Positions 4,313 to 35,617 of a stretch of DNA of 64,000 nt are shown one piece after another. This stretch comes from a virus: the IMG/VR virus record IMGVR_UViG_3300049460_000312, positions 219,374-283,373 of that record; one strand, given 5' to 3'. Both the position numbers and the translations under genes were made by a program. The notes beneath the pieces were generated by a model, which saw nothing but the letters and a program-made list of their open reading frames with translations, was not told where the DNA came from and ran no database searches. The stretch's first letter is position 1; each line of letters starts with the position of its first letter.

Positions 4313-4383
4313 CTGCTCTGGTAGTAGATTGGAATAACGCCGGTTACGACCCGGAAAAGTGGGTTCGATTCCCATCCAGGCAG
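4313..4383 (+). tRNA. possible degenerate tRNA-Arg(ACG)-like element
   Basis: A convincing T-arm (GTGGG-TTCGATT-CCCAT) and an anticodon-like hairpin (CCGG-TTACGAC-CCGG, ACG in the anticodon position) are spaced as in a tRNA. The acceptor stem pairs only with one bulge, the D-arm is poor and CCA is not encoded. It is followed by a terminator on the plus strand. It may be a decayed or unusual tRNA, or coincidence. Confidence 0.3.
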
Positions 4384-4410
4384 TGTCACAGCAAAAAAAA
4401 AAATAAAGCA

Positions 4411-9531: not shown

Positions 9532-10143
9532 TTAAGCCGCCTTTTCTACCGCGTCCAGTAGACGGGTATTCCAGGGCGGCACAAAACCTTCACAGGCCGC
9601 CTTACGGGAGGTACGGCTAATGGCCCCACAGAGGATCTGGGTGCGCTGGTCCTGCGGGTATTTGAAGTGGGTCGGATGGCGTTCGTCATCCAGCGTCTCC
9701 GAGAAACCCCGGAAGCTGGCGTTGTATTCGAAACCAATCGACTCGATGAACTTCATGCTCCAGTGACAGAGGACGATTTCCCGCACACTTGTAGTGTAGA
9801 GTTTACGGGCGAGGATGTCTCCGTCTTTCACAATCAGCCACGGCTGAATCGAGCGCAGCAACATCGCGAAGAGGTCGAGACTGCCAAAGTGGCAGGCTGC
9901 CCGACTTTCATAGACCCAGTGATTGCCCTTGTTCTCTTTCACCCGCCAGCCCCAGGTCTCGAACGACTCAGCGCCCGAGGTCAGCATCGTGCGCAGTGTC
10001 GAGCTGTTGTGCAGACCCAGTAACGAGTCTTTGAACTCCGGCGGATTCGTGATGCCATACAACTGATCCAGCATGGCGATGGTCCGCGCCGGAGCTGACT
10101 TGCGGATTTTCAAGCGGGTAGCGACACCTTCATAAGCACTCAT
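9532..10143 (-). CDS. hypothetical protein, paralogue of the gene at 8447-9100
   Basis: 203 aa. It shares the ATR-x-KIRK-x-AP N-terminus (residues 8-18), WRVKE (66-70), the YESRAA segment and GDIL with the protein at 8447-9100. It is the first gene of the operon, preceded by a promoter-like motif at 10168-10195. Function unknown. Confidence 0.85.
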   Translation of the reverse strand: MSAYEGVATRLKIRKSAPARTIAMLDQLYGITNPPEFKDSLLGLHNSSTLRTMLTSGAESFETWGWRVKENKGNHWVYESRAACHFGSLDLFAMLLRSIQPWLIVKDGDILARKLYTTSVREIVLCHWSMKFIESIGFEYNASFRGFSETLDDERHPTHFKYPQDQRTQILCGAISRTSRKAACEGFVPPWNTRLLDAVEKAA

Positions 10144-10167: not shown

Positions 10168-10195
10168 CACGTAGTAATATACGCCCAACGGAAAG
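10168..10195 (-). promoter_or_regulatory. promoter-like GTATATTAC motif
   Basis: Minus-strand reading GGCGTATATTACTACGTGG, about 25 bases before the ATG at 10143. It contains TATATTAC exactly, the published phiKZ early-promoter core. Confidence 0.55.
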
Positions 10196-10249
10196 TTAGA
10201 ATCAATTCCACACTATAAATTGGACAATGCCTATAAAATTTGACGGCAT

Positions 10250-11045
10250 AAAAAAGGGAGAGGGCCAATGCCCTCTCCCGGAGTGCATTGCCTCGCGGGA
10301 ACGTTCCACCAAACGTCCCGAGATTCAACCCGCAAACAAACCACAGCTGAACGACGCCACCAGTCTTAGTGAGCGCGGGGAGGGGATACGGGCCCATCTA
10401 CCTATCTTACCCCTCCCCACCGCCTCGTCCCAGGTCACCATCAAACCTGAGCGGAGTGTGGCTAAGCCCACTCACTACCCTCATTGTTCTCCGCACCCGT
10501 AAGTGCATTGGGTCAGCTCCCAACTCAATGAAGGAACTACGCTCGTTCTAACGTAGCTTTGCTTTTTACCGCATACCAAGATAGCGGTGTTGACCTCTCC
10601 TCGTTTGCTTGGGTCTTCGAGGTTTCGCAATACCCATATCCTTCTCAGATAGGCTGGTGCTGCTGAGGTAGAGACATGCTGACGCCACTGGCGGACCTGC
10701 ACTTTTCCCTACGCTGCTGCTACCCAGGCTAGCCTTCTAAACTGATCCATGACCTTTGCATGGCTGCGTCGGCTCGTCTGCATTTGACTTTAATTGTCGA
10801 TCCCAACCGCTACACTACCTTAGTTCGTTCGAGGTGTTGTCGGTCTTACTTATCCTACTACTGGTCCGATGACTCGGGTGGAGGAACCAGTGGCAGGCTG
10901 CCGCTGTAGGAGGAGCTGGTGATCGCCTGTCACTCACGCCAGACGAAAAATGTTACCGTTCAGAAAGATAGTCCACGAGCTGCCGAACATAAAAGTTCCA
11001 TGCTGGCTTAGGGGGACATAATAATTAGGGAACTTTTTTACAGTT
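10250..11045 (-). ncRNA. large structured non-coding RNA candidate (~800 nt)
   Basis: About 950 bases without a credible gene. Hairpins visible: 10377-10385 with 10410-10418 (nine pairs), 10296-10305 with 10312-10320 (nine pairs, one bulge), 10451-10456 with 10489-10494, 10506-10510 with 10526-10530, and 10537-10541 with 10552-10556. The segment begins in an AT-rich, promoter-like stretch near 11020-11060 and ends in a strong minus-strand terminator. Short frames inside have no ribosome sites. Large ornate phage RNAs such as GOLLD and ROOL are known near tRNAs; membership cannot be judged by eye. Confidence 0.6.
10256..10279 (-). terminator. intrinsic terminator ending the large RNA candidate
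   Basis: Ten-base-pair stem GGGAGAGGGC / GCCCTCTCCC with loop CAAT, followed on the minus strand by T6 and ATGCCGTC. No protein gene ends here, so the transcript it closes is the non-coding segment 10280-11040. Confidence 0.85.
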
Positions 11046-11076
11046 ATCATACATAACAGCAAAAAAAAAGAACTCA

Positions 11077-11092
11077 GGTGGCCGAAGCCACC
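11077..11092 (-). terminator. intrinsic terminator
   Basis: GGTGGC-CGAA-GCCACC, followed on the minus strand by TGAGTTC and T9. It closes the mini-gene cluster at 11098-11734. Confidence 0.85.
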
Positions 11093-11097
11093 CAAGC

Positions 11098-11226
11098 TTA
11101 CTTGAGCCAGTGCACCAAGAGAGCAATCGCACCCAGAGCTACAACCAGCTTCAGCTTGTTCTTCTGCACTTGCACGTAGAACTCGGGTTCTTCTACGAGG
11201 CGAACGAAGACGGTACGCTTTTTCAT
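11098..11226 (-). CDS. mini membrane protein, 42 aa
   Basis: Begins MKKRTVFVRLVEEPEFYVQV. A basic segment then leads into one hydrophobic helix (residues about 26-40, LKLVVALGAIALLVHWL). The ATG overlaps the stop of the upstream gene (ATGA). The size and single C-terminal helix suggest a tail-anchored phage membrane peptide. Function unknown. Confidence 0.7.
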   Translation of the reverse strand: MKKRTVFVRLVEEPEFYVQVQKNKLKLVVALGAIALLVHWLK

Positions 11227-11734: not shown

Positions 11735-11787
11735 TTTTCTTTCCTTTGGTGTTGGTGACAAAAAATAACAGCATAAAGGAGCGCAGG

Positions 11788-11833
11788 GGGCGGCGATGAC
11801 CCGAGGCTAACCCGTCCCCGTCCACCGCCGCCC
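11788..11833 (-). terminator. terminator of the tRNA/structured-RNA unit
   Basis: Eight-base-pair GC stem GGGCGGCG / CGCCGCCC with a structured loop, followed on the minus strand by CCTGCGCTCCTTTATGCTG and then a T6 run. Confidence 0.65.
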
Positions 11834-12038
11834 TTCTCCTACACCGCCCTCCCCGGATTTGCCGGACGGAGGACTATTTTCGATCGCATGCACGAAAGGT
11901 CGCACTTCCGGATACTCCCGCGTAGGAAGCAATCCGACATGGCGTACCGCACGCGACCGACGTCGCGGGAACTCCCGCGAGGGTCAGCGCCGTCGGGTCT
12001 CTCTTCCCGGGGGCGCCAGACTCTTTACTACAACAATA
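11788..12038 (-). ncRNA. structured RNA downstream of the tRNAs (candidate)
   Basis: No gene. Strong hairpins include CGCGGG-AGTT-CCCGCG (minus strand), a GCGCC/GGCGC stem with an inner CGGG/CCCG helix, and CCGG-CAAAT-CCGG. It follows tRNA-Asn without a terminator and ends in the hairpin at 11788-11833. It probably belongs to the same transcript as the tRNAs and the structured segment at 12212-12605. Confidence 0.5.
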
Positions 12039-12040
12039 CT

Positions 12041-12116
12041 TGGCTCCCCGGGTTGGACTTGAACCAACGACCAACGGATTAACAGTCCGCTACTCTACCG
12101 ACTGAGCTACCAGGGA
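12041..12116 (-). tRNA. tRNA-Asn(GTT)
   Basis: Full cloverleaf on the minus strand: acceptor TCCCTGG with CCGGGGA (one G-U pair), anticodon loop CTGTTAA giving GTT, T-arm GTTGG-TTCAAGT-CCAAC. CCA is encoded at 12041-12043. 76 nt. Confidence 0.95.
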
Positions 12117-12132
12117 TCTACTACAGAAACAA

Positions 12133-12209
12133 TGGCGCGGCGTAGGGGACTTGAACCCCTGACCCCTGGCGTGACAGGCCAGTACTCTAACCAACTGAGC
12201 TAACACCGC
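12133..12209 (-). tRNA. tRNA-Asp(GTC)
   Basis: Full cloverleaf on the minus strand: acceptor GCGGTGT with ACGCCGC, anticodon loop CTGTCAC giving GTC, T-arm AGGGG-TTCAAGT-CCCCT. CCA is encoded at 12133-12135. 77 nt, 16 bases upstream of tRNA-Asn. Confidence 0.95.
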
Positions 12210-12211
12210 AA

Positions 12212-12605
12212 ACTACAAAACAAGAGGCTATACTCCCAGGGGCGACAGTTCGTTCTCTCAACCGCCGCTAACGCCGCAGTCAACTCTCGATCCTGCCCTA
12301 GGGGCTATAGTCTCGCTGCTAACGAGTTAATAACTTGAAGTTCCGATTGATGGTCTTCCCTTCCTACACTTTGACGCAAGGGTATCAGCCTTCGTCTCAT
12401 TGAGTCCCCGATGGGCGCGCCTCCTTTCGGTTAGCGCGCATGAGGCGATCGCGGCCTTTCGCCGCGCTCTACGTAGTTTCCGGCACCGTCCCCTTCGGGC
12501 GGCCGTGTCTTTGCCAGAACGCCAAAGTAGCTGCTTCAGGATTCTGGTAGAGCCGGATGCGAATGCTAGTGTGAGTCTTCGCATGTAATTGACCGAACGT
12601 GTATT
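12212..12605 (-). ncRNA. structured RNA upstream of the tRNAs (candidate)
   Basis: About 390 bases of GC-rich, gene-free sequence. On the minus strand it holds GCGCGC-TAA-CC(GAAA)GG-A-GGCGCGC (12415-12439), CGCGGC-GAAAG-GCCGCG (12450-12466), CCAGAA/TTCTGG (12514-12519 with 12542-12547) and a hairpin near 12490. GAAA loops appear in the minus reading. An Arg-rich open frame (12327-12584) is a composition artefact. It runs into tRNA-Asp with no terminator. Confidence 0.55.
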
Positions 12606-30591: not shown

Positions 30592-31245
30592 TTAGACGTC
30601 CAGCGTCGCCGGGATCACCGGCAGGTCAGCCGCAACAGTAGCGGCATCAACCGCTTCCTTCAGGGTCCAGCTTGCTCCATAGACCGCGGAGACGCGCTGG
30701 AAAGCCGCGTTCGACATGGCCACGATCGCGTTGGCGGTAGCCATCACGACCTTGTTTTCGAGCGTCCGGAACGGCAGGGTCTGGTCACCCTGACCGGCGG
30801 CGATAAAACCGTCCGCCGTGACCCGCAGACCCGTGATGTTCAGACAGTCGCGCTCGCGCAGCTGCACGCCGAGCACACCATCAGTGCCACCGAAGTCGTA
30901 CTGGAAACCTTCACCCAGCTTGGCATCGCGCAGCGTGTCGATCTGTGTTGAGAGTGCCGCCTTCTGCGTGGTGAGCATGCCCGCCAGTTCATCGGTGGTG
31001 TAGTCACGCACGGCCCATTTCTGGGTCCACACACCATCGATCTGTTCGGGTTTGTCTTCAGTGACTACGTCGCCAGTCGGCGACGGGGCCGACTGCACTA
31101 CCGAATAACCGAGGTCTTCGATGAGCGATTCGTCCGGCTCCGCCGCGAAGCTGATCGTCGGATTGTCCTGACGGACCTTGAACAACGAGACCGGATACTC
31201 CAGTGTCTCGTTGTTGATCAGCAGGGTTGCTGCAGTGATTTTCAT
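30592..31245 (-). CDS. DUF4376-like tail-fibre accessory protein
   Basis: 217 aa. The C-terminal half (about 95-205) fits the DUF4376 pattern of phage tail-fibre assembly/accessory proteins: QIDTLRDAKLGEGFQYDFGG, DCLNITGLRVTADG, a TLENKVV stretch and AFQRVSAVYGASWTLKEAVD. AGGAACTCTC precedes the ATG. It lies directly downstream of the collagen-like fibre gene, the usual place for a fibre chaperone or cap. Confidence 0.8.
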   Translation of the reverse strand: MKITAATLLINNETLEYPVSLFKVRQDNPTISFAAEPDESLIEDLGYSVVQSAPSPTGDVVTEDKPEQIDGVWTQKWAVRDYTTDELAGMLTTQKAALSTQIDTLRDAKLGEGFQYDFGGTDGVLGVQLRERDCLNITGLRVTADGFIAAGQGDQTLPFRTLENKVVMATANAIVAMSNAAFQRVSAVYGASWTLKEAVDAATVAADLPVIPATLDV

Positions 31246-31297
31246 GAGAGTTCCTGAGGGGAGACGGGGCAGTCCCGAAGGACCACCCCTAGGTTAC

Positions 31298-34200
31298 TTA
31301 GGCCGTCGCGCCCACCGAGCCCGTCCACTTCGTGCCATCCCACAAGAGGATAACGTTGGTGTACGTCGCGCCCAGCGTCGGTGCCGTACCGCCGGACCAG
31401 CTGATGCTGCCCGGCCAGGTGATTGCAGCGGCGTTACCCGTCACGGCGATCACGACCGTCATGGCCCGGTTTGCACCCGGGGCATTCACGAATGCCAGCG
31501 TCTTGGCCGTTGCCGCGCTCACAGTGAATGCCTGGTTCGCAGCCAAGTCCAAGTTGGCTGTCGTCGCCACGATCGGCAGATCGTAACGGTCCAGACGCTT
31601 CAGACCCACCGTGGTGCCGTTGTTGTAGGCCACGTAGTAGGCGCTGTCATTCGGCGCCAACGGGGTCGTCAGCGTTGCCACGTCCGTCCAGTTGCCACCC
31701 TTTTGCACGTAGGCCTTTGCGTCATTCGGCGCAGCCACCGTGGCCAAGGTCGAGAGATCGGTCCAGTTACCGCCCTTCTGAACATACGCCTTCGCGTCAT
31801 TCGGCGCTTTCGTATCCGTCAGCGTCGACAGGTCCACCCACGCACCCGTCTTCTGTACGTAGGCTTTCGTGTCGTTCGGAGCCGGCGTGAAGGCCGTCCA
31901 TGCACCATCCTTACGGAGATACAGGCCATGGTCGAGCGGAGCTTCGCCAACAGCCGGAGCCGGCAGCGGCACCCACGCACCGTTCTCACGAACGTACGGC
32001 GTGTCGTCGAGGTTGGCATCGTAGACGTTACCACCGCCCAGATAACCCAGCCAGCTCCAGGCCACCGTGGTGGTCTTCTGGAAGAAGCGCAGTGTCGAGC
32101 TGTTGAGGAAGTAGTCACCCACCACCCCGTCAGCCGGATTCGGATCACGGCCGAGCACAATCCAGCGCGTGCCTTGGTCACCCTTATCGCCCTTCAAACC
32201 TTGCAGACCCTGGTCACCCTTCAGACCTTGCAGACCTTGCAGACCGCGATCACCCTTGGGACCCTGAATCGGACCCACATCGATGAACGCGGAACCGGTC
32301 CACGCCCAGCCATGCAGCGTGTCGGACGCGATGTACATATCGCCCGCATTGGTAGCCGAGCCCGGCAGAGCCGCGCTATTGGCCACCGTGCCAAGAATCT
32401 TGACGCCCGGACCCATCGGACCCGTATCGCCTTGATCACCCTTGTCACCGGTGTCACCCTTCAGACCTTGAACGCCTTGAAGACCTTGGTCGCCTTGGAT
32501 GCCTTGGAGACCCTGGTCTCCCTTATCACCCTTGTCGCCCTTCCACTGTCCCACATCCACCCAGACCGTACCGTTGTACGAGTAAAGGTGATCGCCCACG
32601 CGGTAAGCATCACCTTGCGTGTTGCCCGAGACTGGGAGGTCACCCGAGGTCGCAACAGTGCCGAGGATCTTGACGTTGTTACCGGCTGTGCCAGTATCGC
32701 CCTTATCCCCCTTCACGCCTTGCAAACCCTGAATGCCCTGAATACCTTGCAAACCGGTATCGCCCTTATCCCCCTTGTCACCCTTCAGGCCCTGGAGACC
32801 CTGGATACCCTGATCGCCCTTCGGACCTTGAATCTGGCCCAAATCGGTGAATGCTGCACCCGTCCAGCCCCAGAAGTGGCCCTGGATCAGATAACCATCA
32901 CCGATGGCTTCAGTGGTGTGCGCTGGCAGTTGCGAGGAATCCGCGTACGTACCGAGAATCTTGATACCGGGACCGAGGTCACCCTTGACACCCTGGATAC
33001 CCTGAATACCCTGGATACCTTGATCGCCTTGGTCACCCTTATCGCCTTTATCGCCTTTGACACCCTGAATGCCCTGAATACCCTGGATACCTTGGTCACC
33101 CTTCGGGCCGACGAACGGACCTGCATCCACCCACGCGGTGTTCACGTAGATGAAGAGGTTCGAACCGACGATGTACGCGTCTTCTTGCGCCGGGTTGCCG
33201 GGTAGAGCAGCCTGATTCGCAACCGTACCCTTGATGACGATACCACGACCCATCGGGCCAGTCAGACCCACGTCACCCTTGGCGCCCTTCAGCGAAGCGA
33301 TCCATTGAGCCTGCGTACCCACGTAGCCGTTGTCGACTGCTGTCTGGTAAGCTGAGTCACCGGACACACCCACCAGCGAAGCCAACCACTGGGCCTGCGT
33401 ACCGACAAAGCCACCGGCGACTGCTGCCGTGTAAGCCGAGTCGCCTTGATCGCCCTTGTCACCCTTATCGCCCTTGACACCCTGGATACCCTGAATGCCT
33501 TGGTCACCCTTCGGGCCTTGCACCGGACCGACGTCGATAAACGCAGTGCCCGTCCATGCCCAACCGTGGAGGGTATCCGCGGCAATATACATATCGCCAG
33601 CGGTCGTCGACGAACCCGGCAGTGCGGAGCTCGTAGTCACCGTACCGAGGATCTTCACACCAGGACCCATTGGGCCTTGGATACCTTGCAGACCTTGGAT
33701 ACCCTGATCGCCCTTCGGGCCAACGAGGGTTGCCAACCATGCCGATTGCGAGCCCACAAAGCCGCTATCCAGCGCGAGCTGGTAAGCCGTTTTGCCCACG
33801 AGCGATTGCAGCCATGCGGCTTGCGTACCCACGAAACCATTGGCTTGCGCCACCTGGAACGCGGTCTTACCGTTGAGCGACGTGATCCACTGCGAGAGCG
33901 TCATCGTGCCCGGGATCAGCCCCGCATCCTTCGCGAGCTGGTAAGCGGACTTACCGTCCGGCCCCACCTGACCCACCGGCACCCAGTTCGTGCCATCCCA
34001 CACCCACATCACGGCGTCAATGATGAACGCGTCGCCTGCGGTGTTGCCAGCCGGACCCGGCGGCAGATCACCCACGGTCTGGAACGAACCCAGCACCTTC
34101 AGGCCGATACCATCTGCACCATGCAACGACGCGAGCCAGTCATCGGCTGTGCCGCTGAACCCAGCGATCAACGCGAGGTCATAGGCCGACTTACCGTCCG

Positions 34201-35454: not shown

Positions 35455-35495
35455 ATTCGACCTTGTCTAGCTTGGTGGAAAAAACAAAAAAACGA

Positions 35496-35512
35496 CCCGT
35501 TAGCGAAACGGG
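35496..35512 (-). terminator. leader terminator/attenuator before the fibre operon
   Basis: CCCGTT-AGCGA-AACGGG, followed on the minus strand by TCG, T7, G, T6. It is 40 bases before the ATG at 35454 and downstream of the nrdB terminator at 35571-35590, which makes two consecutive terminators. Confidence 0.65.
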
Positions 35513-35570
35513 GCGCCAATTAAGTCTATAAAATTGCGGCAAAAAAATACAGTCGCTACCACAGCATAAA

Positions 35571-35590
35571 GGCCCGGGTTTCCCCGGGCC
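35571..35590 (-). terminator. intrinsic terminator of nrdB, GCATAAA type
   Basis: GGCCCGGG-TTTC-CCCGGGCC, eight pairs, followed on the minus strand by TTTATGCTG. Confidence 0.85.
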
Positions 35591-35617
35591 TCGTATGTCG
35601 GAGTTATGCGATACGCA

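Follow-up and report, generated by a model that had tools for sequence, protein, structure and literature searches.

A candidate large structured non-coding RNA gene near the tRNA genes of a phiKZ-like phage, with a homologue in Ralstonia phage RP12

Introduction

Phages repeatedly carry very large RNAs beside their tRNA genes, and the task of these RNAs is unknown. The locus analyzed here raises the question of what is encoded by about 800 bases of phage DNA that lie close to tRNA genes. A sequence-only reading had described the region as a structured non-coding RNA (ncRNA) on the minus strand, similar in size, structure and position to the phage RNAs GOLLD and ROOL. We examined this proposal by comparison with a related phage, by RNA folding, and by searches with models of known RNA families.

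The window, by which we mean the whole 64,000-nucleotide stretch of DNA that was analyzed, covers positions 219374-283373 of a virus record 283,373 bases long; coordinates are those of the window unless otherwise stated. The ribonucleotide reductase genes of the phage resemble those of phiKZ-type phages. Its nearest relative among the records searched is Ralstonia phage RP12 (IMG/VR record, 279,845 bases), for which a genome of 279,845 bases is reported (PMC11530567; PMC5468394). In a whole-genome alignment of the two phages, 59% was aligned at 73% identity.

Results

Location of the candidate and its neighbors

The candidate lies within a gap of 950 bases that has no codon-biased gene, between an ORF at 11101-11226 and a gene for a protein of 203 amino acids at 9532-10143, both on the minus strand. 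The ORF is the last gene of the tRNA-side operon located upstream, and tRNA-Asn and tRNA-Asp are found about 1 kb upstream of the candidate on the same strand; tRNA-Asn is likewise present in RP12. A terminator hairpin for the tRNA-side genes (11071-11098, minus strand), which RP12 has in the same position, stands between these genes and the candidate and thus isolates it from them. With the terminator at its own 3' end, the block is flanked by terminators on both sides in both phages. The premise that the genome has almost no spare space was only roughly true: the gap is real, but there are other gaps, several of them conserved and structured. A search of IMG/VR with the neighboring proteins returned no relatives.

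Several other observations were made around the phage tRNAs. A second conserved structured non-coding element of about 270 nt (11763-12036, minus strand) lies directly 3' of tRNA-Asn and ends in the same type of terminator (CCTTTATGCTG); its RP12 counterpart is at 131577-131866, and the alignment of the two gave an alifold z of -4.6 and compensatory changes. Repeats of TAGTAG/TTGTAGTA, perhaps a processing signal, occur in the spacers between the tRNAs of this phage, RP12 and Burkholderia phage FLC9 (window 12029-12220; L029 4500-6120). In FLC9 the last tRNA is, in addition, followed by about 480 nt of non-coding sequence. An isolated, weak tRNA-Arg call (31 bits) at 4313-4384 on the plus strand is possibly a relic.

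A homologous block is present in RP12

RP12 contains a homologue of about 800 nt on its minus strand (129694-130495), with 75% identity over the whole length (E 1.9e-128). On the minus strand of the window, the homology extends from about 11032 to about 10244. We place the structured ncRNA gene at 10249-11032 on this strand, a length of approximately 770-785 nt, with the 5' end lying between about 11032 and 11017. The sequence-only reading had put the start in an AT-rich stretch near 11040; the likely 5' end is refined to 11017-11032 by our analysis, and the AT-rich stretch contains no early-promoter-like ATATTAC. In RP12 the block follows the same upstream neighbors, namely small genes and the tRNA-Asn region, but the downstream gene differs: the 203-amino-acid family gene adjoins the block in our phage and is found about 1.1 kb further on in RP12. 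Because other genes follow the block in RP12, a role as leader of the 203-amino-acid gene is rejected.

Conservation is uneven along the block, the 3' half being 80% and the 5' half 60% identical between the two sequences available. Analysis by sliding windows ranks the 3' core within the few percent of the genome that are best conserved. Comparison by tblastx of the window block with the RP12 block gave 81-88% identity for the core in all six frames, with matching segments that jump between frames. Since the six frames are equally conserved and the matches jump frames, the conservation is not protein-coding. The claim that some 800 bases lack a credible gene is thus borne out, no codon-biased gene being present and the six frames being alike against RP12; a coding signal in the homologue, which would count against an RNA gene, was looked for in the same six-frame comparison and was not found.

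The distribution of the block is narrow, with a homologue in RP12 only among the records searched. Motif scans of IMG/VR matched RP12 alone. A 16-base motif was present in ten other contigs, in which a covariance model (R1) built on the conserved core at 10467-10631 gave no credible match. Across 20 jumbo-phage records, including phiKZ, 201phi2-1, LucasX and FLC9, model R1 detected only this phage and RP12; the best further match, in 201phi2-1, falls within a virion protein gene and was rejected. Searches by blastn of phages and of plasmids revealed no further homologue. A motif scan of GTDB gave two Bacteroidota contigs, which were set aside as being without similarity.

The block has a conserved fold on the minus strand

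Folding of the minus strand gave -299.8 kcal/mol, compared to -277 +/- 7.3 kcal/mol for dinucleotide shuffles (z -3.1), and a second folding script gave z -2.96 for the window block and -4.25 for the RP12 homologue. RNAalifold analysis of the two-sequence alignment yielded -175 kcal/mol on the minus strand against -124.5 +/- 8.8 kcal/mol for column-shuffled alignments (z -5.7), versus a z of -3.3 for the plus strand. The many strong hairpins noted earlier therefore hold up as structured RNA, with z near -3 for single sequences and -5.7 for the alignment, and the difference between strands supports the minus-strand orientation that had been proposed. It is the 3' half that carries the alifold signal (z of -3.6, -5.8 and -5.4 in its windows); the 5' half alone, the alignment of which is poor, had no significant alifold structure.

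For the 3' half, 108 pairs were predicted, with 100% of cells paired in both sequences and eight two-sided compensatory changes. Sliding the partner by 1-3 columns reduced this to 42-52% of cells paired and 0-1 two-sided changes. Two of the eight changes are in the helix CCUUCAUUG/CAAUGAGGG against CCGACAUUG/CAGUGUCGG, and where only one side has changed, the minus strand retains a G-U pair. The covariation whose absence would have counted against the original reading was thus seen, as compensatory changes, in the predicted 3' helices, although covariation drawn from two distinct sequences is thin. Note that the structure was drawn from the same two sequences, so that the column-shuffle test is fairer than pair counts.

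Parts of the predicted RNA

The predicted RNA, described here from its 5' end with all features on the minus strand, begins with a conserved start block (11008-11034), TTCCCTA..TTATGTCCC. The 5' domain (10720-10980) is the less conserved part at 60% identity and is closed by a helix between 10980-10958 and 10742-10722. The conserved core (10467-10631), about 92% identical to RP12, contains a hairpin CCUCR...YGAGG (10599-10622; helix 5) with one two-sided change from G-C to A-U, followed by an invariant hairpin (10535-10558) with the sequence GAACGA (10548-10543) in its loop. By base complementarity this loop could pair with a conserved UCGUUC at 10354-10349 to form a putative pseudoknot, which we treat as a lead. 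The core continues with a helix between 10534-10526 and 10486-10478 that has two two-sided changes and surrounds an invariant hairpin at 10524-10507 (10478-10534; helices 8 and 9).

Beyond the core are a short hairpin AGGUU..GACCU (10432-10448; helix 12) with one two-sided change and a long G+C-rich hairpin (10372-10424) with two two-sided changes. The long hairpin bears an invariant apical palindrome GGGCCC (10395-10390) near its tip. This sequence is a possible kissing loop, again a lead; the palindrome is no more than chance would give, since about 250 conserved windows should contain approximately four conserved 6-base palindromes, compared to the one observed. A 3' hairpin (10293-10323; helix 16) is formed around GACGUU-UGGUGG-AACGUU and has one two-sided change.

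Terminator and promoter signals

The block ends in a terminator (10244-10279, minus strand) that has the phage's own signature, consisting of a 10-pair hairpin, TTTTTT, and then ATGCCG. As had been claimed, this is a terminator without a protein gene: the ten pairs and six T residues occupy 10279-10250, and no protein gene ends there. A perfect hairpin followed by TTATGC was counted at 45 sites here and at 56 in the RP12 genome, compared to 0-3 per strand for control hexamers, indicating that the terminator type is not due to chance. The signature hairpin is often GGCCCGGG-GAAA-CCCGGGCC followed by TTTATGC(C/T)G, for example at 10244-10279 and 35455-35617 of the window. Because TATG, which is the late-promoter form in phiKZ, is part of the signature, the element may combine a terminator with a promoter.

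The early-promoter-like sequence ATATTAC is biased toward the minus strand, with 18 minus and 5 plus sites in this genome and 21 and 0, respectively, in RP12. Motifs similar to CACATATTACTA, mostly on the minus strand (window 10174, 15613, 50607, 58441 and 63620), are likely early promoters of the virion polymerase. No ATATTAC was found directly before the ncRNA block; the nearest (10174-10180, minus strand) lies downstream of the ncRNA terminator and serves the next operon. The late polymerase of phiKZ starts at the G of TATG (PMC5312081), and by this rule and the alignment with RP12 the TATG in the start block, with its G at 11017, is a candidate late promoter. This assignment is a suggestion, because the motif used by the related phage AR9 is a different one. 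RP12 is able to replicate in the presence of rifampicin (PMC5468394), which makes a phage polymerase the likely transcriber of the ncRNA.

Comparison with known phage RNAs

The resemblance to GOLLD and ROOL that had been noted remains a likeness only, and neither covariance model matches. The GOLLD model (RF02032, gathering score 150 bits) gave no match at E<=10 in the genomes of this phage or RP12. The ROOL model (RF03087) likewise gave none at E<=10 in the two phages, and control genomes gave none either. Neither RNA was detected in Rfam scans of each homologue alone at E<=10. In an Rfam 15 scan of the window, tRNAs alone scored above the gathering threshold, and sub-threshold matches to HOTTIP_1 and mir-1249 were rejected as implausible. 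A likeness of the string CUAAGGUAG to 23S rRNA was considered and rejected, as the string is not kept in RP12.

The large phage RNAs GOLLD and ROOL, which have no known function, often occur near tRNA islands and form RNA-only cages; GOLLD has a conserved 3' region and a less conserved 5' region (PMC12286853). The RNA described here shares with GOLLD, whose RNA-only cage has 14 subunits, a length of about 800 nt, a phage origin, nearby tRNA genes, many helices and a 3' region better conserved than the 5' region. Unlike GOLLD, our RNA is known only from a small clade of phiKZ-like phages. With ROOL, which forms a multimeric RNA-only nanocage, it shares large size, a phage origin and closeness to tRNA islands (PMC12286853), but ROOL is about 660 nt compared to about 770 nt here, and the halves of our RNA are unequal in conservation. 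Because the likeness consists of size, place and, for GOLLD, unequal halves, we file the RNA under neither family. Its two sequences do show compensatory changes, an absence of coding and a bounded unit of its own, as befits the broad kind of large structured phage ncRNAs.

Non-coding RNAs of phiKZ itself have been found by Grad-seq (PMC8545117). One is a fragment of about 100 nt, presumed to arise by processing of a 3' UTR, and another is an RNA of about 180 nt from a 5' UTR; the source of one lies close to the tRNA-Asp/Asn genes. These are also ncRNAs of a phiKZ-type phage, one of them in a similar setting, but they are far shorter and linked to UTRs, whereas the RNA here is about 770 nt and stand-alone. 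The tRNA region of phiKZ has no gap near 770 nt, and model R1 had no credible match in phiKZ.

Other structured intergenic regions of the genome

Other intergenic regions also had conserved structure. One (G000:C1:133785-134263; L053 13785-14263) spans about 480 nt between divergent genes, is 81-85% identical to RP12 with about 90 identical bases in a row, and forms a long hairpin (alifold z -5.2, plus strand). It had no match in Rfam or the phage collection and is a candidate for another large ncRNA. Two minus-strand intergenic regions of the same record, 31147-31489 and 121625-121830, have structure conserved relative to RP12 with z -4.6 and -4.3, respectively.

Discussion

On the basis of the comparison of the two phages, the locus very probably contains a genuine gene for a structured ncRNA, encoded by the minus strand. 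The explanations that do without such a gene can be weighed against the same data. A conserved DNA element, such as a replication origin or a packaging or recombination site, would also be conserved, non-coding and rich in hairpins, but the folding signal favors minus-strand RNA over the plus strand, positions changed on one side only still form G-U pairs in the minus-strand RNA, and the block is framed by an upstream terminator and closed by a phage-type terminator; we consider this explanation improbable. Equally hard to sustain, and if anything slightly more so, is a riboswitch or attenuator in a 5' leader belonging to the 203-amino-acid gene, or a 3' UTR of the upstream small-gene operon. 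The block does share its strand with both neighbors, but terminators bound it on both sides in both phages, an early-promoter-like motif at 10174 serves the 203-amino-acid gene itself, and in RP12 the block has another downstream neighbor. It is highly improbable that the block is a protein gene, whether decayed or overlooked, or contains a very small ORF. ORFs in the region reach 91 amino acids, by chance, and the sole core ORF with an RBS-like start (about 22 codons, ATG near 10636) is preceded by AAGGAUAUGG; against this, the six frames are equally conserved, and in RP12 a one-base indel is found beside the ATG and the differences within the ORF are mostly amino-acid-changing.

A closer contender accepts the RNA but assigns it a different task, as a large regulatory or sponge RNA. 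Its partners would be a protein of the host or phage, the ribosome or other RNAs, whose activity it would alter in takeover, without self-assembly. The block is an independent unit on the early-promoter strand, with tRNAs and small genes of unknown function nearby, and partners could bind at invariant single-stranded stretches such as UAAAAAGCAAAG. In addition, phiKZ makes small ncRNAs, one of which was found in RNA polymerase and 30S fractions (PMC8545117). On the other hand, a simple sponge would not usually be so large or have conserved structure to this extent. We regard a regulatory role as a serious possibility at less than even odds, and about as likely as an architectural one.

In our best reading, the block represents a family of large phage ncRNA that is new and narrow in distribution, with an RNA of about 770 nt that is presumably transcribed independently. 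Transcription would most likely start near 11017-11032 on the minus strand, with a phage RNA polymerase reading the gene and ending at the phage-type terminator at 10250. The RNA would then work by shape, as a scaffold that binds itself or phage or host proteins, similarly to GOLLD and ROOL, a step that is less certain than transcription. Such a scaffold would be built from the conserved 3' domain joined to the faster-changing 5' domain. We favor the architectural reading because identity is higher in the 3' half (80%) than in the 5' half (60%), an imbalance also described for GOLLD, and because of the invariant GGGCCC near a hairpin tip. That the RNA is self-associating and architectural is nonetheless a tentative suggestion, and that it belongs to a new self-assembling (caged or otherwise oligomeric) class used by phiKZ-type phages and unrelated in sequence to GOLLD and ROOL is more doubtful. 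For the statement as a whole, that of a stand-alone structured ncRNA gene of about 770 nt, read by a phage polymerase and working as a scaffold by its shape, we estimate a probability of roughly 0.45.

We know of no earlier large ncRNA in a phiKZ-type phage. An unrelated family of large RNAs with a homologue in a cultivable phage, RP12, would make the question of what such RNAs do testable by comparison, and transcription by the phage-encoded polymerases of a phiKZ-type phage would make the timing of the ncRNA readable. If the large phage RNAs shared an architecture but no sequence, this would suggest that they have a task in common. If the RNA does belong to a self-assembling class, large RNA assemblies would have arisen more than once in phages.
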